Source of the DNA: Winogradskyella sp.
GTDB lineage: Bacteria; Bacteroidota; Bacteroidia; Flavobacteriales; Flavobacteriaceae
Direction of reading: 5' to 3'
DNA length: 42,190 nt
NCBI GenBank assembly: GCA_030149175.1
Contig: JASBSA010000112.1
Location: forward strand, 1-42,190
Positions 3,748-33,152 of this stretch are shown one piece after another. The notes under the pieces are model-generated. The model was not told where the DNA came from and did no database searches. It saw nothing but the letters and a program-made list of their open reading frames with translations. Position 1 is the stretch's first letter; each line of letters starts with the position of its first letter. Both the position numbers and the translations under genes were made by a program.

Positions 3748-4083
3748 ATGTCTAAAACTTACTATGACCCAGCCGATCTTAGAAAATTCGGAAATATTAC
3801 TGAATGGGATGAAGAACTCGGTAACAAATTTTTTGATTACTACGGAAAAGTCTTCGAAGAAGGTGCATTAACTGCTCGCGAAAAATCACTTATTGCACTA
3901 GCAGTAGCACATACAGAACAATGCCCATATTGTATTGATGCTTACACCAAAGATACGCTTCAACGTGGTGTAACCAAAGAAGAAATGATGGAAGCTATTC
4001 ACGTTGGTGCTGCAATTAAAAGTGGTGCAACGCTTGTGCACGGTGTTCAAATGATGAATAAAGTCAACAAACTAGATGGTTAA
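3748..4083 (+). CDS. Carboxymuconolactone decarboxylase/AhpD-like protein of the ArsS cluster
   Basis: A 111-residue, all-helical protein of the CMD/AhpD family. It has the redox CxxC motif as CPYC at residues 59-62, inside the conserved region ending in GAAIKSGATLVHG. The His that usually follows the CxxC motif in AhpD is a Tyr (Tyr66). Family members use the CxxC pair for thiol-dependent peroxide reduction. It sits 71 bp upstream of the radical SAM gene, the position typically held by the protein annotated as arsenosugar biosynthesis-associated peroxidase-like. It could protect, or reduce, an intermediate of that pathway; this is inferred from position only. It appears to be the first gene of the long co-directional block. 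Confidence 0.82.
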   Translation: MSKTYYDPADLRKFGNITEWDEELGNKFFDYYGKVFEEGALTAREKSLIALAVAHTEQCPYCIDAYTKDTLQRGVTKEEMMEAIHVGAAIKSGATLVHGVQMMNKVNKLDG

Positions 4084-4154
4084 TTCTTCTTTATTTCAAA
4101 AAAATAAAACTGACTGAAGCAAATTCTCGTAAATACTAAAAAGACTCATTATTA

Positions 4155-5210
4155 ATGGCCATAAAATCCTTAAAAAAACGCGAAAGTGATTTAGCAAAAA
4201 GTAACAAGCAACTCGAAATTTTATCTAATGGAATTTTCAAAAATGGTGAATTGCCAACCTTTAAAGATAAAATTGCTGAAACCAATCAGTTTCCGTTAAA
4301 AGCGAAAAAGCTAGAAATTCTTCAAATCAATGTTGGCTATATGTGCAACCAAGTTTGTGAGCATTGCCACGTTGACGCAGGTCCCGACCGAAAGGAAATA
4401 ATGACCAGAGAAACGATGAAGCAATGCTTAGAGGTCATCAAAAACACAGAAGCACATACTTTGGATTTAACTGGTGGCGCACCTGAAATGAATCCAGATT
4501 TTAGATGGTTTGTAGAAGAGGCTTCAAAAGCAGGTATTAAAGATTTTATTGTGCGCTCTAACCTTACCATAATTAGAGCCAATAAAAAATATTACGACTT
4601 GCCAGAGTTCTTTAAAAAACACAATGTGCACGTCGTGAGCTCAATGCCACACTGGACGCGTGGAAAAACGGACAAACAACGTGGTGATGGTGTTTTTGAT
4701 AAATCCATAAAAGCGTTACAAGAACTAAATACTGTTGGCTATGGGATACCAGACAGTAATTTAAGATTAGATCTGGTATATAATCCTTCGGGTGCATTTT
4801 TACCAGGTGACCAAGCGTCTATGGAAAAAGATTTCAAAAAAGCATTGATGGAAGATTTTGGCATTCAGTTTCACAATTTATTTGCCATCACCAATTTGCC
4901 AATTGCTCGTTTTTTAGACTATTTAATTGCTTCAGAAAATTACGAAGATTATATGTATCAGCTTGTAGAGGCCTACAATCCTGCCGCTGTAGCCAACGTT
5001 ATGTGTACAAACACACTCTCGGTAAGTTGGGATGGCTATTTATACGACTGCGATTTTAACCAAATGTTGGAATTACCCGTGAATAGCAAGGTGAAACATA
5101 TTTCAGAATATAATAAAGACCTTTTGGAAGGCAGAAATATTGTGATTTCACAACATTGTTATGGCTGCACGGCTGGTGCAGGCAGTAGTTGTCAAGGTAG
5201 TGTAGCTTAA
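4155..5210 (+). CDS. arsS: ArsS-type radical SAM protein with Cys-rich C-terminus
   Basis: A 351-residue radical SAM enzyme. The [4Fe-4S]-SAM cluster motif CxxxCxxC is at Cys64, Cys68 and Cys71, and the SAM-binding GGAPE-type motif is at 107-111. The C-terminal region carries five more cysteines (284, 299, 335, 338, 346), ending in HCYGCTAGAGSSC, which is diagnostic of the family once called rSAM/selenodomain and now ArsS; in some species a selenocysteine is reported in this region. In cyanobacteria ArsS is linked to making a dimethylarsinoyl-deoxyadenosine intermediate of arsenosugars. Here it follows the CMD gene and is 6 bp from the DUF2064 gene. The start ATG gives a typical leader before the core. 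Family call is strong; the actual substrate in this organism is inferred. Confidence 0.88.
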   Translation: MAIKSLKKRESDLAKSNKQLEILSNGIFKNGELPTFKDKIAETNQFPLKAKKLEILQINVGYMCNQVCEHCHVDAGPDRKEIMTRETMKQCLEVIKNTEAHTLDLTGGAPEMNPDFRWFVEEASKAGIKDFIVRSNLTIIRANKKYYDLPEFFKKHNVHVVSSMPHWTRGKTDKQRGDGVFDKSIKALQELNTVGYGIPDSNLRLDLVYNPSGAFLPGDQASMEKDFKKALMEDFGIQFHNLFAITNLPIARFLDYLIASENYEDYMYQLVEAYNPAAVANVMCTNTLSVSWDGYLYDCDFNQMLELPVNSKVKHISEYNKDLLEGRNIVISQHCYGCTAGAGSSCQGSVA

Positions 5211-5216
5211 TTGCAG

Positions 5217-5933
5217 ATGAACAAACAAACGGCCATATTAATTTTTGCTAACTCAGCCAAGAAAACTCTTGATTCTAAAAGAATTTCTGCTTCTGAGTTT
5301 TTCAAAATTATTGATAGAAAAACCCTTGAAACCGTTCAAAAAACAGGGTTGTCGTTTTTTCATTTTAGTGAAGATCAACAAATTGGTTTTAGTTTTGGTG
5401 AACGTTTTTCAAATGCAATTGCCTCTGTTTTTGAAGAAGGATACCAAAACATCATTACAATTGGTAATGACATACCACACCTTAACTCCAAAATTCTCAA
5501 TAAAGCTGCGCAACATCTTGAAAACAAGCCTTATGTTTTAGGACCTTCTACAGATGGTGGTTTTTATTTAATGGGATTTCAACAAAGAGATTTCAACAAA
5601 GAGGAATTCGCAAATTTACCTTGGGAAACCAAACAATTAAAACAAAGTTTTATTAATGTTTTAGAAGTACGGAAGCTGAGTTTTTCATTTTTAGAAACAC
5701 TATCAGATATAGACTCTTCATCCGATATTGATGTTGTACTAAAATCGTCTAGATTTCTAAACAAATCCCTAAAAAGCTTATTAAGTAAGCTTACAGCGTT
5801 TTCAAAACGCATTTTCACATCTAACAGACCAATTTACAAAATCCATTGCATAAGTTGCCTTTTCAACAAAGGCTCGCCTTTTTTACTTCATATTCGAAAG
5901 GATTACAAACTGCTAGTCCTTCAAAATCAATAA
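5217..5933 (+). CDS. DUF2064/CofC-like glycosyltransferase-type protein, divergent copy
   Basis: A 238-residue protein of the TIGR04282 type (nucleotidyl/glycosyltransferase-like fold). The central signatures are present: IGNDIPHL (82-89) and GPSTDGGFYLMG (109-120), followed by a LPWET segment. The N-terminal K-TRLA nucleotide-binding motif seen in the second copy at 13288 is not recognisable here, and GSD is changed to GND. A basic, serine- and lysine-rich C-terminal extension follows the fold. The ATG at 5217 was preferred over a TTG at 5211, giving a 6-bp gap from arsS. It may be a specialised or partly degenerate paralogue, acting as partner rather than catalyst. Substrate unknown. Confidence 0.72.
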   Translation: MNKQTAILIFANSAKKTLDSKRISASEFFKIIDRKTLETVQKTGLSFFHFSEDQQIGFSFGERFSNAIASVFEEGYQNIITIGNDIPHLNSKILNKAAQHLENKPYVLGPSTDGGFYLMGFQQRDFNKEEFANLPWETKQLKQSFINVLEVRKLSFSFLETLSDIDSSSDIDVVLKSSRFLNKSLKSLLSKLTAFSKRIFTSNRPIYKIHCISCLFNKGSPFLLHIRKDYKLLVLQNQ

Positions 5934-5970
5934 ATAACCTTTTAAACACACCACTCTAAGTGGAAAAAAT

Positions 5971-8900
5971 ATGAAGTACATTTACACTTGCATACTTGTT
6001 ATGCTATGCATTTTTGGTAACGCACAAATTAGCGTTTCTGGTAAAGTTACCGATGCTAAAACCAAGGAACCTATTCCGTTTGTAAATATCACAACCTCAA
6101 ATGGAAAAGGTACAACAACCGATGACGATGGATTTTATAGTATTATCGTAAACAGCCAACAAGACCAACTCACTTTCTCGTTTTTAGGTTATAAAACCGA
6201 AACTATTCTCATAGGCGAACAAACCACAATCAATGTTACCCTTATTGAAGATGCCTCTGCTCTAAACGAAGTTGTGATTACCGCTTTAGGGCTAGAACGC
6301 GATACCAGAGAGCTGGGTTATGCCGTACAAGCTATAGATTCTAAAAAACTCACCGAAGTAAAAACCGTTAATTTTTTAGACAACTTACAAGGAAAGCTTG
6401 CAGGTGTTACCGTAACACAAGGTGCAACAGGCGTTGGCTCTTCGTCTAAAATTACCATTAGAGGCGAAGCATCCTTTTCTAACAACAATCCGCTTTTTGT
6501 TGTAGATGGTGTACCGATAAATAACGAAACTGTTTTCAATTTTACAAATGAAGCAGCAGCTGGTTTTCAAGAAATTGATTTTGGAAATGGTGCTATGGAA
6601 GTTAATCCAGACGACATTGCCTCGGTTACCGTTTTAAAAGGGCCAAGTGCAGCTGCCCTTTATGGCACGAGAGCTTCAAACGGTGTCATCGTTATTGAAA
6701 CTAAGAACGGTACAAATGCCAAAGGACTAGGCATTAGTTACAACACATCCATTTTTGTAGATACAGCCTTTAAGCTTCCAGAGTTTCAAAACACCTATGG
6801 ACAAGGAAATTCTGGTCAGTTTGAATATGTTGACGGCCTTGGCGGTGGTATTAATGATAATATTACCTATTCTTGGGGACCACGATTGGATATTGGGTTA
6901 TTGATTCCGCAGTTTGATAGTCCTGTAGAGCTAGCCAATGGTACTATTGTAAGAGGTGGTGATACATCGGTATATTCAGGTTTAGAAATTACGCCGACAC
7001 CTTTTGTTTCAAATCCTGATAACCTTAAAGATTTCTACGAAACAGGAATTACAACGATCAACAATCTTTCTATTTCCAACGGATTTAATACTGGTAATTA
7101 CAGACTATCCTTTACAGATTTAAGAAGCGAAGCCATTATACCTGGTGTTAACTTAGATCGCCAAACCGTCAATGCCAAACTCAATTTTAAACCGAGCGAC
7201 AACACCGAGTTTAAAGCGGCTATCAGTTATATAAATTCCAGTAGTGACAACAGACCTTCTAATGGCTATGGAAGTGAAAACGTTAACTATTCTTTAGTAG
7301 CTTGGGGACCACGATCTTTGAACATTAATAACCTTAGAGACTACTGGCAACCTGGCTTAAGAGATGTTCAGCAATATTCGTTTAACTACACGTTTTTTGA
7401 CAATCCCTACTTCATCCTTCACGAAAACACCAATTCATTTAATCGTGATAGAATTTTTGGTAATGTATCTTTTAAACAAAACATTACATCAAACTTAAGT
7501 CTTACCATACGCTCTGGAATAGATTACAGTACCGAAAAAAGAGAATTAAGACGTGCCTACAGTAGCAATCGTTTTCAAAATGGTGCTTATGCCGAACACG
7601 ATGTTGAATTTAGAGAGGTGAATACCGACTTTTTATTCAATTACAAAAACAACTTTAGTGATTTTTCAGTCGATCTTTATTTTGGTGGTAACCGATTGAA
7701 TCAAACGGCTTCAAACCGACAAGCGCAGACCGTAAGTTTGGCTCAGCCCGGAATTTTTAATTTGAATAATGCTGCTTCACCTATTGAAGTCTTTCAATTT
7801 AAAAGCGAAAAACGTATTAATTCTCTTTATGGTATTGCAAAATTAGGTTATAAAGATTTTTTATTCCTAGATATTACAGGAAGAAACGACTGGTCTAGTG
7901 CCTTGGCCACCCCTTTTTCTGCTGATAATAGTTCATTTTTCTATCCTTCTTTGTCGTCTAGTGTAATTCTTTCTAACATTTTTGAACTACCAAAAGCTAT
8001 TTCTTTTGCAAAGTTTAGGGCTAGTTTGGCACAAGTTGGTAACGACACCAGTGCTTACCAAACCTCAAGCGCGTTTGTAGCCCAGACACCATTTGACAGT
8101 CAGCCAACATTTAGTAACCAAGATTTTATTGCAAATTCTAATTTAAAACCAGAACGTACAACATCTTACGAAATTGGTACGGATTTACGGTTTTTTGACA
8201 GCAAACTGCGTTTGGATTTTACCTATTACAATAACACAACCACAGATCAAATTATTTCCTTGCCAGTTGCCATTTCGTCTGGTTACAACCAACAAGTGGT
8301 CAATGGTGGAAAGGTAAATACTCAAGGTGTAGAAATTATCTTGGGTACAACACCAATACAAAATGAAAATTTCACCTGGAATAGCACCTTTAATTTTGCT
8401 ACTAACAGATCGGTTATTAAAGATTTACCGCAAGCCGATGGAAGGCTGACCTTAGCTTATAGTAGAGTTTACGATAGTGCCAACCAAACAGTTTGGTTTC
8501 AAGTTGAAGAAGGTGGACGGATTGGTGATTTTTATGGTACAGGTTATCAAAGAAATGAGAATGGCGAGTTTGTAATAGATGATAATGGCAACTTTATTGC
8601 AGATAACAACCTTAAGAAATTGGGTAACTACAATCCGGATTTTACATTAGGCTGGAATAACAATTTTACTTACAAAAACTGGAATCTGAGTTTTCTTTTA
8701 GACTGGCGACAAGGTGGCGAAATTGTATCGCGCACAAGAGCTCTAGGAAATGTTGGTGGTCAACTTGCCGAAACCAGCTTTAGGCCAGAAAATGGCATAG
8801 TAGCACAGGGTGTTAATGTTAATACAGGTCAGCCCAATACGGTTGCCATTTCTGCTGAAAGTTACTATAGACAATTTTATGATCGAAATCACGAAGAAAA

Positions 8901-9165
8901 CAACATCTACGATGCGTCTTTTCTAAAATTAAGACAGATGTCCATCGGATATTCATTTAGCACAAAAAATGGCTTTTTGGGTCTAAAAGATGGAATGGAC
9001 ATTAGTCTTTCCTTAGTGGGAAACAACTTGTTTGCCATTACAGAAAATCCACATTTTGATCCAGAACAACTTGCCGTACAAGGCAATGGATTTGTAAATG
9101 GTGTAGAAGATATGAGCTACGCAACCACAAGAAGTATTGGCTTTAAAGCCGGATTTAATTTTTAA
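5971..9165 (+). CDS. SusC/RagA-type TonB-dependent outer membrane transporter
   Basis: A 1064-residue outer membrane protein. It has a signal peptide (residues 1-19, cleaved near NAQ), a carboxypeptidase-regulatory-like domain (about 22-95) with GKVTDAKTKEPIPF, a TonB-box-like LNEVVITALG segment near 98-107, a plug domain (about 110-245) with the SusC signature ALYGTRASNGVI, and then a large beta-barrel ending in an aromatic residue (GFNF). SusC proteins import oligomers or small ligands together with a SusD lipoprotein, powered by TonB. The partner starts 11 bp downstream. Its place within a radical SAM/transferase cluster, with no polysaccharide-degrading enzymes beside it, suggests a small-molecule ligand; this is inference. 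Confidence 0.93.
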   Translation: MKYIYTCILVMLCIFGNAQISVSGKVTDAKTKEPIPFVNITTSNGKGTTTDDDGFYSIIVNSQQDQLTFSFLGYKTETILIGEQTTINVTLIEDASALNEVVITALGLERDTRELGYAVQAIDSKKLTEVKTVNFLDNLQGKLAGVTVTQGATGVGSSSKITIRGEASFSNNNPLFVVDGVPINNETVFNFTNEAAAGFQEIDFGNGAMEVNPDDIASVTVLKGPSAAALYGTRASNGVIVIETKNGTNAKGLGISYNTSIFVDTAFKLPEFQNTYGQGNSGQFEYVDGLGGGINDNITYSWGPRLDIGLLIPQFDSPVELANGTIVRGGDTSVYSGLEITPTPFVSNPDNLKDFYETGITTINNLSISNGFNTGNYRLSFTDLRSEAIIPGVNLDRQTVNAKLNFKPSDNTEFKAAISYINSSSDNRPSNGYGSENVNYSLVAWGPRSLNINNLRDYWQPGLRDVQQYSFNYTFFDNPYFILHENTNSFNRDRIFGNVSFKQNITSNLSLTIRSGIDYSTEKRELRRAYSSNRFQNGAYAEHDVEFREVNTDFLFNYKNNFSDFSVDLYFGGNRLNQTASNRQAQTVSLAQPGIFNLNNAASPIEVFQFKSEKRINSLYGIAKLGYKDFLFLDITGRNDWSSALATPFSADNSSFFYPSLSSSVILSNIFELPKAISFAKFRASLAQVGNDTSAYQTSSAFVAQTPFDSQPTFSNQDFIANSNLKPERTTSYEIGTDLRFFDSKLRLDFTYYNNTTTDQIISLPVAISSGYNQQVVNGGKVNTQGVEIILGTTPIQNENFTWNSTFNFATNRSVIKDLPQADGRLTLAYSRVYDSANQTVWFQVEEGGRIGDFYGTGYQRNENGEFVIDDNGNFIADNNLKKLGNYNPDFTLGWNNNFTYKNWNLSFLLDWRQGGEIVSRTRALGNVGGQLAETSFRPENGIVAQGVNVNTGQPNTVAISAESYYRQFYDRNHEENNIYDASFLKLRQMSIGYSFSTKNGFLGLKDGMDISLSLVGNNLFAITENPHFDPEQLAVQGNGFVNGVEDMSYATTRSIGFKAGFNF

Positions 9166-9175
9166 TCGATATACA

Positions 9176-10618
9176 ATGAAAACAATACAATATATACTAT
9201 CCGTTTTTAGTTTTTTGATCATTACCACTTGTACTGAAGATTTTGAAGAGATCAATACCAACCCTAATTCGCCAAGCACAGTACAACCCAGTTTGTTGTT
9301 ACGACAAGTGATTTATGATTTTGGTGAAAATATGAGCTACGAAGGTTTTGTAGCAGGCGATTTATTGGCACAACACAGAACGGCTCTGGACTTTAATCTT
9401 TTTGACCGTCACGATTTAAAATCACCACAACTTGGTGGCAACCCTTGGCCAGTATTTTATATCAACTTAAGAGATAATGAAATTATTCTCAACCAGGCAA
9501 GAACAACAGAAACCAATGCTGTTTACGAAGGACCAGCTCTTATTTTAAAAGCCTATATGGCAGCTGGTTTAACCGATTTGTTTGGTGATGTTCCTTATTT
9601 TGAAGCCTTTAATGGTATTGAAGGTACAGTAACACCTGCTTACGATAAGCAAGAAGACATCTACCTTAATGACAATGGCATTTTAGATAATTTAGACAAG
9701 GGCATTGCTGCCATTGAAGCTTATAGCGATGTCATTCCTCTGGAAGGTGATATTCTTTTTAATGGAAATCTTCAGTCTTGGATAAAATTTGCCAATGCAC
9801 TGAAAATAAAACACCTGTTACGTATTTCAGATAAGGTCGATGTTTCAAGTGAACTTCAAGCACTTTTTGACGAAGGTAATTTCATTAGTACAAATAGTGA
9901 AAATGCCATTTTCAACTTTACAAATACAGACCCAAACAGCTTTAGATTGGCCCAACTTCGTATAGGTGATTTCAACAATTTTGTGCTATCTGAAACTATG
10001 GAAGCTATTTTAAATGACCTCAACGACCCAAGATTGGTGACGTTATTTAGACCATTTGCCAATTCTGCCACCAACGAATTCAACGGTCTTTTAAACGGCA
10101 TTGATGCGTCTTCGACATCTATAGCCCTAGCGGATTATTCTCTAGCTAGTACTACATTTAGAGAAGATACCTCTACATTGGATGCCAATTTTATAACAGC
10201 TTGGGAAGTTCATTTTGCACTAGCTGAAGCCGCTGAAAAAGGATATATTGCTGCAGATGCGCAAGCGCTTTATGAAACTGGCGTTGCCTTAGCTTTTGAA
10301 TATTGGAATACCGAATTACCAGCCAACTACCTCACTGGTCCTGCTTCGTATAATGCACCTGGCACAGATCCAATTGAGCAAATTATAACCCAGAAATGGA
10401 TTGCAAGTGTTATTAACGGTTATGAAGGTTGGGTAGAATACAGGCGCACAGGTTTTCCACAGTTAAGAACAATTTCTGCGAGTTTGAACAATGACCTTAT
10501 TCCTGTAAGAATGCCGTATCCTGCAGAAGAAGAAGCTTTAAATTCTGAAAATTATGCAGTTGCGGCTTCAGAAACAAATAACAATAGTATTAACGTCCCT
10601 GTTTGGTGGAATGAATAA
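9176..10618 (+). CDS. SusD/RagB-like surface lipoprotein
   Basis: A 480-residue substrate-binding lipoprotein partner of the preceding SusC. The N-terminus is a hydrophobic signal followed by ITTC with the candidate lipidated Cys19. The segments NTNPN after the signal, DLFGDVPYFEAF, LKIKHLLRISDK and the C-terminal TQKWIASVINGYEGWVEYRR are characteristic of SusD-like proteins (the SusD-like 2 subgroup). The ATG at 9176 is preferred because it yields the signal peptide directly and avoids overlap with the SusC gene. It is separated from the symporter gene by only 5 bp, so all three transport genes should be co-transcribed. Ligand unknown. Confidence 0.92.
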   Translation: MKTIQYILSVFSFLIITTCTEDFEEINTNPNSPSTVQPSLLLRQVIYDFGENMSYEGFVAGDLLAQHRTALDFNLFDRHDLKSPQLGGNPWPVFYINLRDNEIILNQARTTETNAVYEGPALILKAYMAAGLTDLFGDVPYFEAFNGIEGTVTPAYDKQEDIYLNDNGILDNLDKGIAAIEAYSDVIPLEGDILFNGNLQSWIKFANALKIKHLLRISDKVDVSSELQALFDEGNFISTNSENAIFNFTNTDPNSFRLAQLRIGDFNNFVLSETMEAILNDLNDPRLVTLFRPFANSATNEFNGLLNGIDASSTSIALADYSLASTTFREDTSTLDANFITAWEVHFALAEAAEKGYIAADAQALYETGVALAFEYWNTELPANYLTGPASYNAPGTDPIEQIITQKWIASVINGYEGWVEYRRTGFPQLRTISASLNNDLIPVRMPYPAEEEALNSENYAVAASETNNNSINVPVWWNE

Positions 10619-10623
10619 AATAT

Positions 10624-11958
10624 ATGAGTGCAATTAACTGGCAATGGTTACTTATTATTTTCTCTAGCGTTGTTCTTTTTTTGTTATCGCCTTTAGCGAA
10701 GACGAGAGAACAGTTTTTTAAAGCAACGCATAACAAGAAATCCCCAAATACTCTAGTACTTATGGGCAGTCTTGTGATTTCGTGGATTTTTGCCAAGAGT
10801 ATTACAAATGCAGCTAACCTTGGACTTAGTTTTGGATTGGTAGGCGGAGTAGCTTATGCTGGTTACTACCTCTCTTTTGCTATTGCCGGAGTTGTTCTTT
10901 ACAAGATTAGAGTTGAAGGCAAATTCAATAGTATTCATCATTTTTTAACCTCAAAGTTTGGCAAAGGTGCCATGGCACTTTTTTCAGTTTTAATTGCCAT
11001 TCGGCTTTTTAACGAAGTATGGAGCAACACAATGGTAATTGGTAGTTACTTTGGCGATATTGGTAGTAGTAATTACTATTGGGCCATCATCATTTTTACG
11101 CTACTTACCTTAGCTTATGCTATAAAAGGCGGATTGAGTAGCTCTATTTTTACGGATGTGATTCAGATGGTGTTGTTTGGGGTTTTGCTTATTATTATTC
11201 TTTGGAATATCTTTTCGGTAAAAGATTTTACCATAAACAAAGTGCTACATTCTGGTACCTGGAGCTTTGAATTAGGTTTAAACCTGTTTTTTGCAGCCTT
11301 AATACAATCGTTTAGCTATCCGTTTCACGATCCGGTATTAACCGATCGTGCGTTTATTAGTTCGCCCAAAGTTACCCGAAAAAGTTTTCTATGGGCAAGT
11401 CTTCTTGGCGCACTATGTATTATTTTGTTTAGTATTATTGGCGTGTTTGCTCAGCACCAAGGAATGAAAGGGCAGGCAGCAGTAGAGGTTGGGCAATTTT
11501 TTGGTATTATTGTTTTACTCGTTATCAACTTTATAATGATCACCTCTGCTGCATCAACCTTAGACTCTACCTTTTCATCGTTTTCAAAACTCTTGGTTAT
11601 AGATTTGGGCGCTGTAAACGATTTAACTTTTGGTCGCGCATCAATGGCAATGATAGCAATATTAGGCACCTTACCTGTTTTTTTGGATGCAGAAATCTTA
11701 TCGGCCACAACCATTTCTGGAACAATGGTTATTGGATTAACACCTGTTTTTCTATTCTGGAAAAAAAGCGTACCCAAAATTAGTTTCTTTCTAAGTGTTA
11801 CAACAGGAATTATATTTGGGTTTCTATTAATTTTTGAAAGCTTTCCAAATAGTTTAATTTTCACAAGTGGAAACTATGCCGATTTGCTTTGGGTAAATAT
11901 TTGGGGCATTTTTTGTTGTATCATAGTATATTTAATACCATCGTGGGTAAAAAAATAA
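10624..11958 (+). CDS. Sodium:solute symporter family (SSS) transporter
   Basis: A 444-residue inner membrane protein with roughly a dozen hydrophobic segments spread along its length. Features of the SSS family include the early FxxATH segment before the second helix, the GGVAYAGYY helix, and the HDPVLTDRAF segment in the middle, with Ser/Ala-rich TSAASTLDSTFSS near 300, the region that holds the second sodium site in the family. SSS proteins couple sodium entry to uptake of sugars, nucleosides or small organic acids. Coming directly after SusCD it probably completes a two-membrane import path. The end overlaps the next gene by 16 bp when that gene starts at the GTG. Confidence 0.85.
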   Translation: MSAINWQWLLIIFSSVVLFLLSPLAKTREQFFKATHNKKSPNTLVLMGSLVISWIFAKSITNAANLGLSFGLVGGVAYAGYYLSFAIAGVVLYKIRVEGKFNSIHHFLTSKFGKGAMALFSVLIAIRLFNEVWSNTMVIGSYFGDIGSSNYYWAIIIFTLLTLAYAIKGGLSSSIFTDVIQMVLFGVLLIIILWNIFSVKDFTINKVLHSGTWSFELGLNLFFAALIQSFSYPFHDPVLTDRAFISSPKVTRKSFLWASLLGALCIILFSIIGVFAQHQGMKGQAAVEVGQFFGIIVLLVINFIMITSAASTLDSTFSSFSKLLVIDLGAVNDLTFGRASMAMIAILGTLPVFLDAEILSATTISGTMVIGLTPVFLFWKKSVPKISFFLSVTTGIIFGFLLIFESFPNSLIFTSGNYADLLWVNIWGIFCCIIVYLIPSWVKK

Positions 11959-12770
11959 AACATCTAGGAAACTTAACTGGAAAAGTGCTGCTGTTTGGTG
12001 GTGTTTACAGTAATCTTCAAGCACTAGAGGCTTTAATTGAAGTAGCTAAGCAAGAAGGTATTCCATCAGAAAATTGTATTTGTACTGGAGATATTGTGGG
12101 TTATTGTGCCCAACCCGAAGAAACTATTCAAACCTTTAAAAACTGGAATCCACACAGTATTGTTGGGAATGTAGAAATTCAATTAACCAATAATGAAGAT
12201 AATTGCGGCTGCGATTTTAAATCCGGTTCTCGCTGTGATAATTTCTCTCAACAATGGTATCCTTATGCTAAAAGCAAAGTTTCGAAGAATGCTCTGGACT
12301 ATTTAAGCACGTTGCCCGATCACATAAAATTTACCTATAACAATTTCAACGTTTTTGTGGTTCACGGATCCTATTCAAATGTTTCAGAATATATTTTTAA
12401 ATCCACACCTTGGAATGTAAAACTTGAAAACTTTAATACTACAAAAAGTGACGTTATAATAGCAGGACATTCTGGATTACCATTTACAGATTCAAAAAAC
12501 AACAAAACTTGGATTAATCCTGGCGTTATTGGTATGCCTGCCAACGATGGAACCACTGAGGTTTGGTATGTTATTTTAGACGATAGCACAAAACCGTTTA
12601 GCATAAATTTCCGTAAGTTAGCATACAACCATACACTTACAAGTAGGTTGATGCTAAATGGGTTGCTTCCTAAGTCCTATGCCAAGACTATCGTTAATGG
12701 TATTTGGGATAATATGGAAATTTTACCTAAAGCAGAACAAGAATTACAAGGAAAACCAATTAAGCTGTAA
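11943..12770 (+). CDS. Metallophosphoesterase-fold protein with altered metal site and Cys-rich insert
   Basis: A 275-residue protein related to YfcE-like metallophosphoesterases. The GTG at 11943 is chosen as the start (the upstream TTG would lie deep inside the symporter gene). The GD motif (Gly49-Asp50), the His141-Gly142 pair and Gly175-His176 are kept. Motif I, normally GDxHGN, reads GGVYSN (19-24), so both its Asp and His ligands are lost, and GNHD/E reads GNVE (75-78). Six cysteines (45, 47, 55, 88, 90, 98) lie in the first 100 residues, three of them in an insert after the GNVE motif. The altered motif with retained fold suggests a different metal site or a binding role. It lies between the symporter and rhodanese genes. 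Activity is uncertain. Confidence 0.72.
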   Translation: MGKKIKHLGNLTGKVLLFGGVYSNLQALEALIEVAKQEGIPSENCICTGDIVGYCAQPEETIQTFKNWNPHSIVGNVEIQLTNNEDNCGCDFKSGSRCDNFSQQWYPYAKSKVSKNALDYLSTLPDHIKFTYNNFNVFVVHGSYSNVSEYIFKSTPWNVKLENFNTTKSDVIIAGHSGLPFTDSKNNKTWINPGVIGMPANDGTTEVWYVILDDSTKPFSINFRKLAYNHTLTSRLMLNGLLPKSYAKTIVNGIWDNMEILPKAEQELQGKPIKL

Positions 12771-12800
12771 GGTTAAACAGATTCATTCAACTAACAAAAA

Positions 12801-13295
12801 ATGAGAACTTTCTTCACATTGTGTTTTATCGCTTTAAATCTTATTGGCAACTGCCAAAAAGACCTTAAGACCTTGCTGGAAAAACATAACAAAGGGGACA
12901 TTCCTTACATATCGGTTCAAGAATTGGCAATGCCAAAAACTGAAGCTGTGATACTGGATGCTAGAGAAACAACCGAATTTGAAACTAGCCACATTGAAGA
13001 TGCCATCCACGTTGGCTATAATGCGTTCGACTTAGATATTGTGAAAGAAAACGTTCCAGACAAAACCTCAAAAATCGTAGTGTATTGCTCGTTGGGCATT
13101 CGTTCAGAACATATTGCCGAGCGATTAAAAAACGAAGGTTATACCAATATATTCAATTTATTTGGTGGTATTTTTGAGTGGAAGAACAATGACTTTGTGG
13201 TTTACGACCAAAACAATGAACCTACCGAAAATGTACACGCATTTTCTAAAGAATGGAGCAAATGGCTCTTAAAAGGAAATAAGATATATGACTGA
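12801..13295 (+). CDS. Exported rhodanese-like protein
   Basis: A 164-residue single rhodanese domain with an N-terminal signal peptide (residues 1-19), so it is probably periplasmic. The domain begins at about residue 36 with YISVQEL, includes LDARETTEF (52-60), and has the active-site loop CSLGIRS with Cys96. Rhodaneses move sulfane sulfur or bind thiophilic anions through this cysteine; the six-residue loop CSLGIR fits the sulfurtransferase type rather than the seven-residue loop of the arsenate-reducing Cdc25/Acr2 type. Its 3' end overlaps the second DUF2064 gene by 8 bp, which indicates translational coupling. Its role in the cluster is unknown; thiol chemistry with a thiophilic element such as arsenic is a possibility. 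Confidence 0.85.
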   Translation: MRTFFTLCFIALNLIGNCQKDLKTLLEKHNKGDIPYISVQELAMPKTEAVILDARETTEFETSHIEDAIHVGYNAFDLDIVKENVPDKTSKIVVYCSLGIRSEHIAERLKNEGYTNIFNLFGGIFEWKNNDFVVYDQNNEPTENVHAFSKEWSKWLLKGNKIYD

Positions 13296-13917
13296 TGCCC
13301 TTGTAATCGTTTTTGTAAAGAATATAAAATTAGGAACCGTAAAAACCAGATTGGCTAAAACCATAGGCGATTATGGCGCTTTTGAAGTGTATTCCGAATT
13401 GGTTAAAATCACCGAGAAAGCCACAAACAATTCACATTTTGATAAACGTATTTACTTCTCTGATGCTGTTGTTGACTCAAAATGGCAAAATGAATTCAAA
13501 ACCGTTCAAAAGGGTATTGATTTAGGGGAACGTATGTACAATGCTTTTAAAGATGGGTTTGAAAGTGGATACAAAAAAATAGTCCTCATTGGCTCAGATT
13601 TACCAAATATTAACTCAAAACATATTGAAAACGGCATAGAAGCCCTTGAAGAAAACGAAGTGGTGTTTGGTCCGGCAGAAGATGGTGGCTACTACCTTGT
13701 TGGTATGTCAAAACTATATCAAACCATTTTTCTAAATAAACCTTGGAGCCAACCCAATCTTTTAAGTCTTACGTTGCAAGAGTTACATAAGGATAATATT
13801 AAAGTTGCTACTTTAGACACCTTAAATGATATTGATACTTATGACGATTTAATAGCATCCGTTTTTTATAAAAACAACCAAAAACTACAAGAAAAAATCC
13901 AACAACTCAATGATTAA
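13288..13917 (+). CDS. DUF2064/CofC-like glycosyltransferase-type protein, canonical copy
   Basis: A 209-residue TIGR04282-type protein with all family motifs: KTRLA (19-23) at the nucleotide-binding N-terminus, GSDLP (102-106), GPAEDGGYYLVG (128-139), a PW motif near residue 152 and LNDIDTYDDL near the C-terminus. The fold resembles the guanylyltransferase CofC and GT-A enzymes, so a nucleotide-sugar or nucleotidyl transfer is likely; databases annotate it as an arsenosugar biosynthesis glycosyltransferase by context. It overlaps the rhodanese gene by 8 bp upstream and the nucleoside phosphorylase gene by 8 bp downstream. It is the better conserved paralogue of the gene at 5217. Confidence 0.85.
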   Translation: MTDALVIVFVKNIKLGTVKTRLAKTIGDYGAFEVYSELVKITEKATNNSHFDKRIYFSDAVVDSKWQNEFKTVQKGIDLGERMYNAFKDGFESGYKKIVLIGSDLPNINSKHIENGIEALEENEVVFGPAEDGGYYLVGMSKLYQTIFLNKPWSQPNLLSLTLQELHKDNIKVATLDTLNDIDTYDDLIASVFYKNNQKLQEKIQQLND

Positions 13918-14722
13918 ATTTATAGAGGAAAGTACCGAATACTTAAAACAAAAAGGGTTTGACAAGCCTGAAGTCGGTATTATTTTAGGCACAGGTTTAG
14001 GGCAATTAATTAGTGAAATAGACATTATAGCCCAAGCTAGCTATAACCACATTCCAAACTTCCCAACGGCAACGGTAGAGTTTCATAAAGGTAAATTAAT
14101 TTATGGCAACCTCGAAGGTAAAAAGGTTGTGGTAATGCAAGGACGTTTTCACGTTTACGAAGGTTACACGCTTCAAGATGTGACATTTCCAGTGAGAATT
14201 ATGGAAAAACTAGGCATCAAAACCTTATTGGTATCCAACGCTGCTGGAGCTGTGAATTTAGATTTCAAAAAAGGGGAATTAATGTTACTAGACGATCACA
14301 TTAATCTTCAAGGCAGTTCACCATTGGCTTTTAAAGGCGTGTCAGATCTTGGCGAGCGTTTTGCTGATATGAGCGCACCTTATGATGCTGATATCAATTC
14401 AAAATTTGAAACCATTGCCAAGGAAAAAAATATCAAATTACACAAAGGTGTTTACGCTAGTGTGGTTGGCCCACAGCTAGAAACTAGAGCCGAGTACAGA
14501 ATGTTAAAAATTATTGGTGCAGATGCCGTTGGTATGAGTACTGTACCAGAAATTATTGTGGCTAATCATTTGGGATTAAAAGCTGCAGCTGTTTCAGTGT
14601 TAACTGATGAATGCGACCCAGACAATCTAAAACCGGTTGACATTTCTGAAATTATTGAAATGGCCAGTAAGGCTGAACCAAATATGATCACCTTATTTAA
14701 GGAATTGATAAAGAGTATTTAA
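13910..14722 (+). CDS. Purine nucleoside phosphorylase (trimeric PNP/MTAP family)
   Basis: Cleaves purine nucleosides with phosphate to a base and ribose-1-phosphate. The 270 residues fit the trimeric PNP/MTAP family. Visible active-site elements: GTGLG (27-31), GRFHVYEGY (78-86, with the phosphate-binding Arg79 and His81), SNAAGA (109-114), VGPQLETRAE (186-195, with Glu191) and GMSTVPE (208-214). At the position that separates PNP from MTA phosphorylase (Asn243 in human PNP, Asp220 in human MTAP) this protein has Asp233 in LTDEC. That would favour a 6-aminopurine such as adenine, but many Bacteroidota PNPs may share it. The 8-bp overlap with the DUF2064 gene ties it to the cluster. Exact specificity is inferred. 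Confidence 0.9.
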   Translation: MIKFIEESTEYLKQKGFDKPEVGIILGTGLGQLISEIDIIAQASYNHIPNFPTATVEFHKGKLIYGNLEGKKVVVMQGRFHVYEGYTLQDVTFPVRIMEKLGIKTLLVSNAAGAVNLDFKKGELMLLDDHINLQGSSPLAFKGVSDLGERFADMSAPYDADINSKFETIAKEKNIKLHKGVYASVVGPQLETRAEYRMLKIIGADAVGMSTVPEIIVANHLGLKAAAVSVLTDECDPDNLKPVDISEIIEMASKAEPNMITLFKELIKSI

Positions 14723-14752
14723 ACGTAAATTAAGGAGTCTTTTTAAAACGTG

Positions 14753-15646
14753 ATGGAAAAATACATAGACTTAATTAAAAACTCATATTCTGGGTATTGG
14801 AACTACCTAAAACACGAGCTTATTGATATTAATCATTGGGATAATTATTTCTATGGACTTATCATTATTTCTATCGTGGTGTGGTTATTGGAAATGGCTT
14901 TCCCTTGGCGAAAAAATCAAGCCCTGTTCAGAAAGGATTTTTGGCTAGATACGTTTTATATGTTCTTCAATTTCTTTCTTTTGAATTTAATTGTGTTCAT
15001 TGCCTTATCTAACACTGCGGCAGAATTTTTTAACGATATTTTAGGATGGATAGGGTTATCCATCAAAAGTTTTGAAGTATTTGATATAGACCAGCTACCA
15101 AAATGGCTTGAGCTTTTCATCTTTTTTATAGTAGCAGATTTTGTACAATGGAATACGCACCGCTTACTTCATAGATTTGAGTGGTTGTGGAATTTTCATA
15201 AAGTACACCACAGTGTTAAAGAAATGGGCTTCGCCGCGCACTTGCGCTACCATTGGATGGAACCTGTGGTTTATAAATCGTTATTATACATACCCATTGC
15301 CATCATTGGTGGTTTTGATGCGCAAGATGTAGCTATTGTTCACTTTTTTAATATCGCAATCGGTCATTTGAACCACGCTAATTTGGGTTGGGATTATGGA
15401 GTTTTAAAGTATGTTTTTAATAATCCCAAAATGCACATTTGGCATCACGCCAAAGAATTACCGCAAAATGTAAGGTATGGTGTTAATTTCGGACTAACAT
15501 TAAGTCTTTGGGACTATCTCTTTAAAACCAATTACATTCCATATAACGGACGTGATATTGAACTTGGGTTTGAAGGCGATGAAGATTTTCCAAAAGATTT
15601 TGTGAGTCAAGAGTTGTATCCTGCTTTCTCAAAAAAGCGAAAATAA
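14753..15646 (+). CDS. Sterol desaturase/fatty acid hydroxylase family membrane protein
   Basis: A 297-residue integral membrane di-iron oxygenase-type protein. The His clusters of the family are present in order: HRLLH (136-140), HKVHH (149-153), HLRYH (163-167), HLNH (205-208) and HIWHH (228-232). About four hydrophobic segments surround them (near 33-50, 68-88, 119-132 and 178-203). The family hydroxylates or desaturates lipids and includes alkylglycerol monooxygenase, so a lipid substrate at the inner membrane is likely. The ATG at 14753 was preferred to the GTG at 14750; a purine-rich TAAGGAG lies at 14731-14737. Its presence 30 bp after the PNP gene may mean that the cluster product is lipid-linked, which is speculation. 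Confidence 0.88.
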   Translation: MEKYIDLIKNSYSGYWNYLKHELIDINHWDNYFYGLIIISIVVWLLEMAFPWRKNQALFRKDFWLDTFYMFFNFFLLNLIVFIALSNTAAEFFNDILGWIGLSIKSFEVFDIDQLPKWLELFIFFIVADFVQWNTHRLLHRFEWLWNFHKVHHSVKEMGFAAHLRYHWMEPVVYKSLLYIPIAIIGGFDAQDVAIVHFFNIAIGHLNHANLGWDYGVLKYVFNNPKMHIWHHAKELPQNVRYGVNFGLTLSLWDYLFKTNYIPYNGRDIELGFEGDEDFPKDFVSQELYPAFSKKRK

Positions 15647-15667
15647 TCCTTAAGCATACATATAAAT

Positions 15668-16396
15668 ATGAAGTATCTTTTAGTTTTAAGCATTGCAGTC
15701 TCAACTATTCTGAATTTGACCATATCTAATGATAATTCAGTATTTAATGACCTTTTAAACCACTCTCAATGGAATACTCTTGTGAACAACTATGTATCAA
15801 ATAATGGACAAGTAGATTATAGCAGTTTTAAAACTAATAAGGCTGAGTTGCAAGCCTATATAGAAGTGCTTCAAGGCCACTACCCAAATCTTGAAAGCAC
15901 TTCAAAAAACGAAAAATTAGCATATTGGATTAATGCTTACAACGCTTTAACCATAGATTTAATTCTTAGAAATTATCCTGTTGAAAGCATTAAAGACATT
16001 AAAGATCCTTGGGATCAACGTTTATGGAAATTTGGTGACCAATGGCTAAGCCTAAACGATATTGAACATAACATTCTGCGTAAAATGGATGAACCTCGTA
16101 TACATTTTGCCATTGTTTGTGCTTCAGAATCGTGTCCTAAACTTCAAAATACAGCATTTAAGGCAGATAATTTAGAAGAACAACTCATCAAGGCTACCAA
16201 GGAATTTTTAGCAGATGAGACCAAAAATGACATTTCAGAAAACGACCTAAAGCTATCTAAAATCTTTAAATGGTTCAAAAAAGATTTTGAACAAGATGGA
16301 AGTCTTATCGATTTTTTAAATCGTTATTCAGACGTTACCATTTCAGACAAAGCCAAAAAAAGCTTTAAAGATTATAGTTGGGAATTGAACGACTAA
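15668..16396 (+). CDS. DUF547 family exported protein
   Basis: A 242-residue protein with a signal-like hydrophobic N-terminus (about 1-20). It has the hallmark segments of DUF547: GQVDYSSF near 52-59, LAYWINAYNALTIDLI near 92-107, and the ASESCP segment near residue 160. No biochemical function of DUF547 is established; the conserved Cys/His pattern has led to comparison with transglutaminase/papain-like folds. It lies 21 bp after the desaturase gene and 32 bp before the glycosyltransferase gene, so it belongs to the same transcription unit. Confidence 0.83.
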   Translation: MKYLLVLSIAVSTILNLTISNDNSVFNDLLNHSQWNTLVNNYVSNNGQVDYSSFKTNKAELQAYIEVLQGHYPNLESTSKNEKLAYWINAYNALTIDLILRNYPVESIKDIKDPWDQRLWKFGDQWLSLNDIEHNILRKMDEPRIHFAIVCASESCPKLQNTAFKADNLEEQLIKATKEFLADETKNDISENDLKLSKIFKWFKKDFEQDGSLIDFLNRYSDVTISDKAKKSFKDYSWELND

Positions 16397-16428
16397 AACT
16401 CTACACCAAATTTTTCCGTAAATAGATT

Positions 16429-17169
16429 ATGATTAGCATAATTATACCTGTACTTAATGAAGCCGAAAACATCGGTAAGTTATTGCAGCATCTCAGGAAA
16501 AATTCCGATTCTGATAATATCTCAGACATCATAGTTGTAGATGGCGGAAGTATTGATGGCACCAAAGATATTGTATTGCAATTTGTCTCTTCGAGCGATT
16601 ATCAAGATTCTGAAACAAGATTAGAATTGACAAATCAAATAGCTGTTAGGCTACTTAATTCGCCAAAAGGCAGAGCCAAGCAAATGAACATTGGCGCAAA
16701 ACATTCCAAAGGTGATATTTTGTATTTTCTGCACGCTGATTCGTTTCCACCCAAACATTTTGACCGATACATTATAAACGAAGTAAGAAAAGGGAACAAA
16801 GCAGGTTGCTTTAGAATGCAATTTGAAAGTAATCACTGGTGGCTTAGGTTAGCAAGTTGGCTAACACAATTTTCTTGGCGTGCTTGCAGAGGTGGAGACC
16901 AAAGCCAGTTCATCACAAAATCACTTTTTGAAGCTATTGGTGGTTATAATGAAAATTATATTATTTACGAAGACAATATCTTAATCAACGAGCTTTATAA
17001 ACGCAAGCAGTTTGTTGTCATCAATAAAAAACTGAAAACCTCAGCAAGGCTTTATAAAAAAGTTGGCATTTGGAAATTGCAATACCATTTTTGGACAATC
17101 TATATTAAACGTTGGTTAGGTGCTTCTGCTGATGAGATGTTGGCATATTATAAGAGAAATATAGCTTAA
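16429..17169 (+). CDS. Family 2 glycosyltransferase of the ArsS cluster (TIGR04283 type)
   Basis: A 246-residue GT-A fold enzyme. The nucleotide-sugar site shows VVDGGSIDGT (36-45), the family-specific SPKGRAKQMNIGA (78-90) and the DxD equivalent HADS (102-105). GGDQSQF (155-161) and the C-terminal RWLGAS complete the family pattern annotated as arsenosugar biosynthesis glycosyltransferase (formerly rSAM/selenodomain-associated transferase 2). Between the first strand-helix unit and SPKGR there is an apparent insertion of about 18 residues (near 53-70) whose DNA resembles a dispersed repeat. It is the last gene of the co-directional block; its stop codon abuts the stop of the convergent phosphatase gene with no gap and no visible terminator. 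Confidence 0.87.
   Translation: MISIIIPVLNEAENIGKLLQHLRKNSDSDNISDIIVVDGGSIDGTKDIVLQFVSSSDYQDSETRLELTNQIAVRLLNSPKGRAKQMNIGAKHSKGDILYFLHADSFPPKHFDRYIINEVRKGNKAGCFRMQFESNHWWLRLASWLTQFSWRACRGGDQSQFITKSLFEAIGGYNENYIIYEDNILINELYKRKQFVVINKKLKTSARLYKKVGIWKLQYHFWTIYIKRWLGASADEMLAYYKRNIA
16588..16633. repeat. Dispersed-repeat-like segment inside the glycosyltransferase gene
   Basis: The segment contains TCTTCGAGCG and then ATCAAGATTCTGAAACAAG, with a short stem ATTCT (16607-16611) and AGAAT (16623-16627). From memory this resembles the widespread flavobacterial intergenic repeat around ATTCTGAAACAAGTTCAGAAT. It is in frame and coincides with the extra residues in the encoded enzyme. No second copy of this exact type was found in the window. 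Confidence 0.45.
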
Positions 17170-17898
17170 TTATTTATTTCTTCCCATTTCATTAGGATAT
17201 AAATGCATCAAGGAATCACTTTGAAAAACTTCTTTTGTATTTATATCTATAGCCGATAATTTTCCCGTAAAAGCTGCACCTGTATCTACATTCCAAACGT
17301 TAGCCGCTTGCATTGGCTGGTACTTATGGTATCGTGTTGTTGGCGTATGACCAATGTAAATTTCTTTATAATGCTTAAGTCGATTAGGAAATAATTCTGA
17401 ATCTTGTTTTATAAGTTTATCCAAAGTTAATGCCATTTCCCAAAGGGTTCGGTCATAATAAAATACCTCTTTTTGAATCTCTTTTTTTACACCGTGCATA
17501 GACGTAAATCCTGCATGTATAAATAAACGATTTTTGTCGTCTAAATGAAACAGAGGCATAGCTTCAAAAAAATTGAGATGTGCATGTTTCTGTGTTTTTG
17601 AATAGCCTTTGTAACTTTCAATAGTCTCCTTTCCTCCATGTATGTACCAAACATCATTAACACTGCCTTCAGCCAACCAATGCTCGCACCACACATCGTG
17701 GTTTCCTTTTATAAAAACACATTGGTTTTTCTTTGAAAGTTCAATAAGGCATTCTATCACTTGAGCGGATTGACTCCAACCATCTACATAATCTCCTAGA
17801 AAAATCAATTGATTATTTGGTGTTACCTCTGCTCTTTCCAATAGCTGAGTCAATGCTCTGAGTCCTCCGTGAATATCTCCAATTACAAGTGTTCGCAT
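17170..17898 (-). CDS. PP1-like metallophosphoesterase (serine/threonine phosphatase family)
   Basis: A 242-residue cytoplasmic phosphatase with an intact di-metal site: GDIHG (7-11, Asp8 and His10), GDYVDGW (35-41), GNHD (65-68), HAG in the second half and GHTPT near the C-terminus. This set matches bacterial PPP-type protein phosphatases and Ap4A-hydrolase-like enzymes. The target could be a phosphoprotein or a dinucleotide; the sequence does not decide. It is convergent with the glycosyltransferase gene (stop codons adjacent) and is 63 bp downstream of the GH113-like gene. It contrasts with the cluster gene at 11943, in which motif I is lost. Confidence 0.88.
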   Translation of the reverse strand: MRTLVIGDIHGGLRALTQLLERAEVTPNNQLIFLGDYVDGWSQSAQVIECLIELSKKNQCVFIKGNHDVWCEHWLAEGSVNDVWYIHGGKETIESYKGYSKTQKHAHLNFFEAMPLFHLDDKNRLFIHAGFTSMHGVKKEIQKEVFYYDRTLWEMALTLDKLIKQDSELFPNRLKHYKEIYIGHTPTTRYHKYQPMQAANVWNVDTGAAFTGKLSAIDINTKEVFQSDSLMHLYPNEMGRNK

Positions 17899-17961
17899 TG
17901 TTTCTTTTTACAAAACTAATTGATAGTTAACAAATACATGGATTGAAAGATTAAATTAGGG

Positions 17962-24377: not shown

Positions 24378-24845
24378 ATGAAAACTATTTACTTAATTAC
24401 TCTTTTTCTTTTTATCACACATACAAATGTCCAAAAGGAATACATTCGTAATTATGACAATGAAGGTCATTTAGTCTCGGAAGGCTGGACGAAAAACGAG
24501 AAAAAGACAGATTTTTGGACATTTTATTATCCTGACGGTACAATAGAAAAAAAAGGCCATTTTTATAAAGGAAAGAAAAATGGGTATTGGTATTTTTACA
24601 CCGAAAACAACAATTTAATTAAAGAAGGAACCTATATAGCCAACGAAGCAAATAATTGGTGGATTTTTTACGAAGACAACAGAACAGTGAAAATTCAATT
24701 TAAGAATGGCTTAAAGGACGGTTATGCTTTATTTTATCAAAATAGGCAACTCAAAAAAGCTGAACGCTATAATGCTGATAAAAAAACTGGCGAATGGACT
24801 TCATACATTAAATTTAGGAGAGATAATCCAGATTTAGAATTTTAA
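24378..24845 (+). CDS. Exported MORN-variant (YwqK-like) repeat protein
   Basis: A 155-residue protein with an N-terminal signal segment (about 1-18). It contains repeated units of the MORN variant type, each following the pattern G-x-W-x-x-[FY]-[YF]: DFWTFYYPDGT, NGYWYFYTENN, NNWWIFYEDN, DGYALFYQNR and TGEWTSYIKF. These repeats usually mediate protein interactions and are named YwqK-family antitoxin in annotation pipelines, a name that need not reflect function here. Its stop overlaps the start of the next glycosyltransferase gene by one base (TAATG), showing translational coupling, so it may be a helper of that enzyme. Confidence 0.78.
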   Translation: MKTIYLITLFLFITHTNVQKEYIRNYDNEGHLVSEGWTKNEKKTDFWTFYYPDGTIEKKGHFYKGKKNGYWYFYTENNNLIKEGTYIANEANNWWIFYEDNRTVKIQFKNGLKDGYALFYQNRQLKKAERYNADKKTGEWTSYIKFRRDNPDLEF

Positions 24846-27473: not shown

Positions 27474-27561
27474 TTTTTAATTGTTTTGGTTACTTTAAAG
27501 TTATTATTCTTTTTTCATTTCGACTACCTAGCAGATTTAAATAATTCTATCTTTGATTTTT

Positions 27562-33083: not shown

Positions 33084-33152
33084 TTTTTTAATTCCTGAAA
33101 GGGAAATTTGTTATTTATTCTTTTTTTTTATTCTATTTGATTCTGAAGTCTT

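Follow-up and report, generated by a model that had tools for sequence, protein, structure and literature searches.

The window analyzed here is a stretch of 42,190 nucleotides from Winogradskyella sp. (positions 1 to 42,190 of the forward strand of contig JASBSA010000112.1, assembly GCA_030149175.1), part of a genome (G000) assembled to approximately 2.5 Mb and approximately 75% complete. It carries a block of 13 tightly spaced plus-strand genes (3748-17169) around the radical S-adenosylmethionine (SAM) enzyme ArsS. The block consists of two units: a conserved core, encoding a CMD protein, ArsS, a rhodanese, DUF2064b, a purine nucleoside phosphorylase (PNP), a PF04116 protein, a DUF547 protein and a TIGR04283 glycosyltransferase, and an optional insert, encoding DUF2064a, SusC, SusD, a sodium:solute symporter-type (SSS) transporter and a metallophosphoesterase-fold protein (MPE). 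Our comparison with related genomes revealed that the insert, hereafter the import unit, behaves like a substitute for ArsM, the maker of the ArsS substrate. We put the probability at about one half that the unit imports methylated arsenic for ArsS, methylation by ArsM being replaced or backed up by uptake.

Distribution of the Import Unit and ArsM

The DNA around ArsS, up to 19 kb, was taken from 36 other genomes of the genus and from one outgroup (G048). Window proteins mapped on the same-genus loci placed the insert between ArsS and the rhodanese. SusC, SusD, SSS and MPE were present all or none, namely in 13 of the 36 other same-genus loci and in the window. Of the 23 same-genus loci that lack the insert, 22 encode a 322-residue methyltransferase, usually between PNP and the PF04116 gene, and a representative of it matched NF038099, the model for the arsenosugar biosynthesis arsenite methyltransferase ArsM, with 574 bits (cut-off 400). 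When the 37 Winogradskyella genomes were searched genome-wide, SSS and MPE were detected in 14 and NF038099 in 22, whereas no genome had both and one (G022) had neither. The approximately 75% complete G000 gave no NF038099 match, and the outgroup had ArsM and no SSS. The exceptional G022 (locus L046), which is nested in a unit-bearing clade, has an ArsS cluster with neither the unit nor an ArsM over the cut-off; loss of the pathway may be under way there, or a different source may be in use.

The family sample consisted of 395 Flavobacteriaceae genomes, requested at a completeness of at least 90, plus G000. ArsS was found in 301 of the 395 and NF038099 in 234, all of them ArsS-positive. The 301 ArsS genomes were divided into 24 with both SSS and ArsM, 210 with ArsM only, 37 with SSS only and 30 with neither, giving an odds ratio of 0.09 and a naive p of 8e-14 in a Fisher test that treats related genomes as independent. 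Within the 18 genera in which SSS varies, ArsM was present in 25 of 26 SSS-negative vs 7 of 23 SSS-positive genomes. A within-genus test, which corrects ancestry only in part, gave p = 5e-5 (Cochran-Mantel-Haenszel; 3 of 20,000 permutations), and by genus 12 went in the expected direction, six were ties and none was opposite. The exclusion between SSS and ArsM is thus a strong trend, not a rule. Strict mutual exclusion was rejected: it holds in the 37 Winogradskyella genomes, but both genes are present in 26 of the best 80 SSS loci (see next section), including L107 and L122. Physical replacement at one slot was rejected as well, the unit (ArsS-rhodanese) and ArsM (PNP-PF04116) usually lying at different places.

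A second ArsM family, the stand-alone NF008823, was tested in all 67 ArsS genomes without NF038099 and in 80 of the 234 with it (24/24 of those with both, 56/210 of those with ArsM only). It exceeded its cut-off in 18 of the 30 "neither" genomes, in 4 of the 37 with SSS only, one of whose genes carries an internal stop, and in 1 of the 80 tested cluster-ArsM genomes. When both families were counted, an ArsM was present in 228 of 240 SSS-negative vs 28 of 61 SSS-positive ArsS genomes, and at least one of the three candidate sources (two ArsM families, SSS) was found in 289 of 301. The initial annotation had proposed that the cluster imports a ligand of no specified kind. The import unit is there; however, it is optional and anticorrelates with ArsM, and therefore it probably supplies an arsenic precursor.

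Composition of the Import Unit and Its Linkage to ArsS

The insert starts with DUF2064a (5217-5933, preferred start ATG 5217), a divergent CofC-like protein that matches PF09837 and remains below the TIGR04282 cut-off (111 bits, cut-off 134). It lacks the KTRL stretch of DUF2064b and has a median ratio of nonsynonymous to synonymous substitution rates (dN/dS) of 0.23. A DUF2064a-like gene also stands in the insert slot of locus L066 (G012) without the rest of the unit. Next come a SusC-type TonB-dependent outer-membrane transporter (5971-9165; TIGR04056, 627 bits, cut-off 368), a SusD-like binding protein (9176-10618, preferred start ATG 9176; PF12771, 304 bits, cut-off 27) and the SSS inner-membrane transporter (10624-11958), whose PF00474 score of 23.3 bits is barely over the cut-off of 22.8. 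With the family profile TIGR00813 it gave 40.6 bits (cut-off 184), the homologue in L107 had no Pfam match at E 1e-5, and a PDB sequence search returned no close relative of SSS.

A search of genome contigs with SSS gave 284 relatives, and the best 80 of these were used in all counts of SSS loci; they come from genera that we take to be Flavobacteriaceae. Within the stretches covered, MPE was present in all 80, ArsS and CMD in 76 each, SusD and rhodanese in 75 each, SusC in 74 and ArsM in 26. ArsS lay within 6.3 kb of SSS and on the same strand in all 76 loci that have it (76/80 overall), so the conserved gene association, whose lack in other genomes had been named beforehand as refuting, was found. 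Since the stretches covered end near SSS, the four loci without ArsS say little: L132, L167 and L180 begin less than 3.5 kb upstream of SSS and L182 ends about 2 kb downstream. Four other loci (L126, L164, L166, L168) have ArsS-SSS-MPE-rhodanese without SusC and SusD, which makes SSS and MPE the apparent inner core of the import unit. In the family sample, SSS was found in 62 of 395 genomes, and 61 of these 62 were ArsS-positive. The two-membrane import system recognized in the initial annotation, an outer-membrane pair with an inner-membrane symporter, is bound to the ArsS cluster, as judged from the best 80 SSS loci. A plain carbohydrate utilisation locus was considered and rejected, the unit having no glycan-degrading enzymes. 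No carbohydrate-active hydrolase model matched in 3748-17169, and a GH113 gene was seen only outside the block on the other strand.

The Core Cluster and the Constraint on ArsS

The core opens with the CMD/AhpD-fold protein (3748-4083; TIGR04169, 193 bits, cut-off 120) and ArsS (4155-5210; TIGR04167 plus DUF3641, 446 bits, cut-off 300). With the preferred starts, the 12 intergenic gaps of the block span -16 to +71 bases, and all 13 plus-strand genes lie at the positions first given for them, separated by the tiny gaps or overlaps described at the outset. Each gene name is likewise backed by curated or Pfam models. Neither a tRNA nor an Rfam match at gathering score was found in the window. The 134-base gap 5' of CMD, read on the plus strand, had no match to the Bacteroidota promoter consensus TAnnTTTG.

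An ArsS match was obtained in all 37 genomes of the genus (G000-G036), split in G023. In the latter, a close relative with an incomplete assembly, ArsS of locus L067 lies in two frames, for which assembly error and decay are indistinguishable. Among the 36 other same-genus loci, CMD, ArsS and rhodanese were present in 36, DUF2064b in 35, PNP, DUF547 and the TIGR04283 glycosyltransferase in 34 each, and the PF04116 gene in 29. The contigs of L049 and L059 end before the later genes, so absence there is uninformative. The DUF2064b tally is from the first mapping; a second tally of 36 for both DUF2064a and DUF2064b was inflated by cross-matches. The gene set TIGR04169, ArsS, rhodanese, DUF2064b, PNP, DUF547 and TIGR04283 is a known arsenosugar-type cluster. 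The initial annotation had inferred an arsenosugar-like or other 5'-substituted nucleoside product for the block, and because its core genes recur in the 36 other same-genus loci (29-36 of 36 per gene), the block is not a chance association.

Protein alignments were assembled from tblastn pieces, with coverage of at least 80% for residue conservation and dN/dS and at least 70% for the 32-locus trees described below; pieces with stops after residue 20 were excluded from the residue-conservation alignments. The cysteines of ArsS (C64xxxC68xxC71, C284, C299, C335, C338 and C346) were present in 102 of 102 rows. Median dN/dS of ArsS was 0.027 in unit genomes (13 sequences) vs 0.032 in ArsM genomes (22 sequences); 13 of the 14 unit genomes were used, G023 being left out for its split frame. 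No amino acid difference was fixed between the two groups. The equal constraint and the lack of a fixed difference argue that ArsS does the same job with the unit or with ArsM. A changed ArsS substrate in unit genomes was therefore rejected, the differences at four positions being differences in frequency. A PDB sequence search found no close relative of ArsS (7wzv was a weak match).

The Metallophosphoesterase-Fold Protein

The initial annotation had called the product of 11943-12770 (preferred start GTG 11943) a metallophosphoesterase variant. The fold was confirmed (PF12850, 39 bits, cut-off 27), and we can add that the protein is cysteine-rich, has a damaged metal site and is fused to a CMD domain in other genera. 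The two-metal site of calcineurin-like phosphoesterases consists of the motifs DxH, GD, GNH, H and GHxH. Compared with 3rqz, the window protein reads GxY, GD, GNV, H and GHxG, and it has six conserved cysteines. An active two-metal phosphatase was therefore rejected, the metal ligands being substituted. In the Maribacter-type loci L174, L175, L179 and L181, MPE is fused to a TIGR04169 CMD domain, which stands behind it. The CMD protein of the window has a CxxC motif at residues 59-62 that was present in 84 of 84 alignment rows. L179 and L182 were omitted from the MPE alignment because the automatic choice of open reading frame was too short. A partial MPE-type protein (P0240) filed under the brown alga Ectocarpus is 90% identical to the Maribacter form and probably comes from an associated bacterium. 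MPE and the MPE-CMD fusion are concrete candidates for a step between arsenic supply and ArsS.

Phosphorylase, DUF2064b and Rhodanese

The trimeric-type PNP (13910-14722) scored over the cut-off of its family (NF006054, 344 bits, cut-off 218). Compared with 8swu, it has Asp for Asn and Ile for His at positions that we take to be the base pocket and the 5' pocket, respectively, and each of the two residues is kept in 95% or more of the 97 alignment rows. MTAP has Asp and a small hydrophobic residue at the corresponding sites. The pocket of the cluster PNP would fit a 5'-modified adenosine, in line with the 5'-substituted nucleoside product that had been proposed from this DNA. However, the bacterial PNPs 4lna and 4m1e have the same TD as the cluster PNP, with Leu in place of Ile, and because they share the Asp the pocket is suggestive, not proof. 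Each of eight same-genus genomes had three PF01048 matches, and in G028 one of the other two was DeoD-sized; the housekeeping role may therefore belong to a phosphorylase other than the cluster PNP.

DUF2064b (13288-13917; PF09837; TIGR04282, 189 bits, cut-off 134) has the KTRL stretch and resembles the CofC guanylyltransferase; it could activate a sugar phosphate. The rhodanese-like protein (12801-13295; NF045521, 201 bits, cut-off 145) has a Cys96 that was present in 100 of 100 alignment rows. The remaining core genes encode a fatty-acid hydroxylase/sterol desaturase superfamily protein (14750-15646; PF04116, 94 bits, cut-off 31), the DUF547 protein (15668-16396; PF04784, 101 bits, cut-off 27) and the TIGR04283 glycosyltransferase (16429-17169; 227 bits, cut-off 182).

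Phylogeny of the Unit

The rpoB tree covered 32 of the 38 genomes, since no rpoB match was obtained for G000, G015, G017, G023, G029 and G036; the sequence of G009 was partial. On this tree the unit label requires five changes, at least three of them by well-supported branches. Trees of the unit and of the core genes were built from 32 rows (the window, 9 of the 13 unit-bearing same-genus loci and 22 of the 80 SSS loci) and midpoint-rooted. In the unit tree, Tamlana joined the unit of the window lineage with a support of 100, and this group lay within the Winogradskyella units, whereas the core-gene tree kept Winogradskyella together with Tamlana outside (support 100). The unit tree thus conflicts with the core tree, which makes at least one lateral transfer of the unit probable.

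Proposed Pathway and Alternative Explanations

In oxo-arsenosugar biosynthesis, arsenic is adenosylated by a radical SAM enzyme (PMC12159101, citing the ArsS paper), and an ArsM-ArsS pairing in the arsenosugar pathway is mentioned in PMC8552651. ArsM was earlier reported from Bacteroidetes (PMC5552862). In the pathway that we propose, SusC and SusD would carry a methylated arsenical over the outer membrane and the SSS symporter over the inner membrane. The cysteine-rich MPE and the CxxC-containing CMD protein may bind the arsenical, reduce it to the trivalent dimethyl form for ArsS, or both. ArsS would then link dimethylarsenic to the 5'-deoxyadenosyl group of SAM, a reaction published for other ArsS proteins of the family to which this one belongs. 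PNP, with its Asp and Ile, would remove adenine and yield 5-arsinoyl-ribose 1-phosphate, which DUF2064b may activate with a nucleotide, and the TIGR04283 enzyme would transfer the activated arsenosugar to an acceptor, possibly a lipid. A broader extension, which we offer tentatively and at somewhat less than even odds, is dedicated scavenging of organoarsenicals: SusCD and SSS would take methylarsenic from algae or other microbes, the MPE/AhpD pair would reduce or chaperone it and ArsS would build arsenosugars or arsenolipids. Methylation and synthesis would then be split among members of the marine community, with lineages switching repeatedly between producing the precursor and acquiring it.

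Several observations weigh against import of methylated arsenic by the unit. ArsM is retained in 26 of the 80 SSS loci, cluster ArsM in 24 of the 61 genomes with SSS and ArsS, and 2 of the 19 SSS loci titled Winogradskyella (L107, L122) have the unit together with ArsM; 12 of the 301 ArsS genomes have neither SSS nor an ArsM of either family. In Winogradskyella, NF008823 shows no complement to the unit, being over the cut-off in 3 of 22 cluster-ArsM genomes (G001, G009, G026) and in 1 of 14 unit genomes. The latter is G000 itself, one of the four genomes with both SSS and a stand-alone NF008823 gene in the family sample, which has a stand-alone arsR-arsM (NF008823)-204-residue gene-acr3 operon on another contig (L100, G000:C141, 8243-11177); in G023, also a unit genome, an NF008823 fragment stays below the cut-off. 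At ArsS positions 29, 238, 251 and 319, residue frequencies are not the same in the unit and ArsM groups. The similarity of SSS to known transporters is weak (32 bits with the choline transporter SLC5A7), and the sole relative in an ArsS-negative genome (G265, 57% identity; L197, 10244-11623) lies among phenylacetate-degradation genes, a setting that gives a hint of a transporter type handling small organic anions. Moreover, dimethylarsinic acid is small, and a SusCD pair therefore suggests a larger or very scarce ligand.

Another explanation, which we consider unlikely, is that the unit salvages a finished, larger organoarsenical (an arsenosugar, an arsenolipid head group or algal arsenobetaine) that is broken down or remodelled, ArsS using the released dimethylarsenic. 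According to the abstract of PMC11658791, the substrates of TonB-dependent transporters are those whose size or scarcity puts them beyond the reach of porins; retention of ArsM in about a third of the SSS loci would be expected of a second input, and several SSS hosts have alga-derived species names. However, the unit contains no glycoside hydrolase, the metal ligands of MPE are substituted, and four loci have SSS-MPE without SusCD. It is improbable, in our judgment, that the imported compound is a pathway partner free of arsenic, such as an acceptor lipid head group, a sugar, a nucleoside or an organic acid. The neighborhood of the G265 relative suggests that ordinary organic anions may be the cargo of this subfamily, but the absence of ArsM of either family mainly where SSS is present would be left unexplained, and so would the fusion of the cysteine-rich MPE to CMD. 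We give an equally small chance to independent variation of the unit and ArsM, with shared ancestry or habitat causing the anticorrelation. The genomes are related, the unit label is clustered by ancestry on the rpoB tree (0 of 500 shuffles as low), both genes occur together in 24 of the 301 genomes, and the missing complement of the second ArsM family in Winogradskyella points the same way. On the other hand, the within-genus test holds, with no genus in the opposite direction, and in the family-wide sample the complement recurs with the second ArsM family. The unit and ArsM also usually occupy different slots, although one recombination tract could span both. Import of methylated arsenic for ArsS is the explanation we prefer.

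Genes Past the Block

The initial annotation had suggested that the product is perhaps lipid-linked. Related genes, glycosyltransferase genes among them, continue past 17169. On the plus strand, family models identified an FAD/NAD(P) oxidoreductase (19111-20415), relatives of which recur near ArsS elsewhere, and, paired with it, a NapH-like 4Fe-4S protein (20418-22004). Two GT2 glycosyltransferases (24845-25552 and 25549-27042) and a weak MptB-like protein (27553-29013), also on the plus strand, belong to the wider neighborhood and have a looser tie. Of 14 ArsS loci that have neither ArsM nor SSS, 11 contain relatives of each GT2 gene, 9 contain a relative of the MptB-like gene and 7 contain relatives of the oxidoreductase and 4Fe-4S protein; the latter pair stands directly 3' of PNP in L183, L185, L186, L188 and L189. 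Electrons and an acceptor, either a lipid or a glycan, may come from these neighbors. On the opposite strand, 17170-18969 carries an ApaH/PrpE-like phosphatase gene and a GH113-like gene, found in 27 and 22 of the 36 same-genus loci, respectively, within the stretches covered. Genes resembling deoxyhypusine/homospermidine synthase and arginine decarboxylase (31175-34544) suggest a polyamine pathway.

Comparison with Known Systems and Significance

The ArsM-ArsS arsenosugar pathway of Synechocystis was reportedly described by Xue et al. in 2019 and Cheng et al. in 2021. The cyanobacterial pathway, as cited in PMC8552651 and PMC12159101, shares the ArsS family with the window, and 22 Winogradskyella relatives have the NF038099 ArsM in their ArsS clusters. 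In contrast, the window cluster has no ArsM and has SusC, SusD, SSS, the cysteine-rich MPE, PNP, DUF2064, rhodanese, DUF547 and TIGR04283; of the arsenosugar companions, TIGR04169, TIGR04282 (second copy) and TIGR04283 are over their cut-offs. Polysaccharide utilisation loci have the same SusC-SusD pair per operon, whereas the block lacks a glycan-degrading enzyme and its pair is tied to ArsS. MPE differs from SapH-type (asymmetric Ap4A hydrolase) calcineurin-like phosphoesterases (PDB 3qfm, 3rqz) by its substituted metal ligands, its six cysteines and the AhpD-type fusion in some genera. The ArsM-AhpD fusion selenoproteins (NF041537, compared by family name only) likewise have an AhpD/CMD domain behind an arsenic enzyme, whereas here CMD stands behind MPE, and the AhpD domains are weakly alike (22 bits). 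Arsenobetaine is taken up by glycine-betaine transporters and used as an osmoprotectant. That uptake resembles the system proposed here in that an ordinary solute transporter imports an organoarsenical; however, no ArsS cluster, SusCD or MPE is involved.

Among the literature matches listed, judged by title and abstract opening, there was no account of the cluster in Flavobacteriia and none of a SusCD/SSS organoarsenical uptake system. As far as these searches show, what is new is the import unit together with the way it complements ArsM, and also the cysteine-rich MPE in its fusion to CMD, whereas the core cluster was already known. ArsS was present in 301 of 395 Flavobacteriaceae genomes, indicating that arsenosugar-type chemistry may be common in marine bacteria, beyond algae and cyanobacteria. 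If our reading is true, the insert would be a SusCD/SSS uptake system for organoarsenicals that links bacterial and algal arsenic cycling and offers a simple genetic way to probe the origin of the arsenic in arsenosugars. The cluster suggests that certain marine bacteria import methylated arsenic which other organisms have produced.

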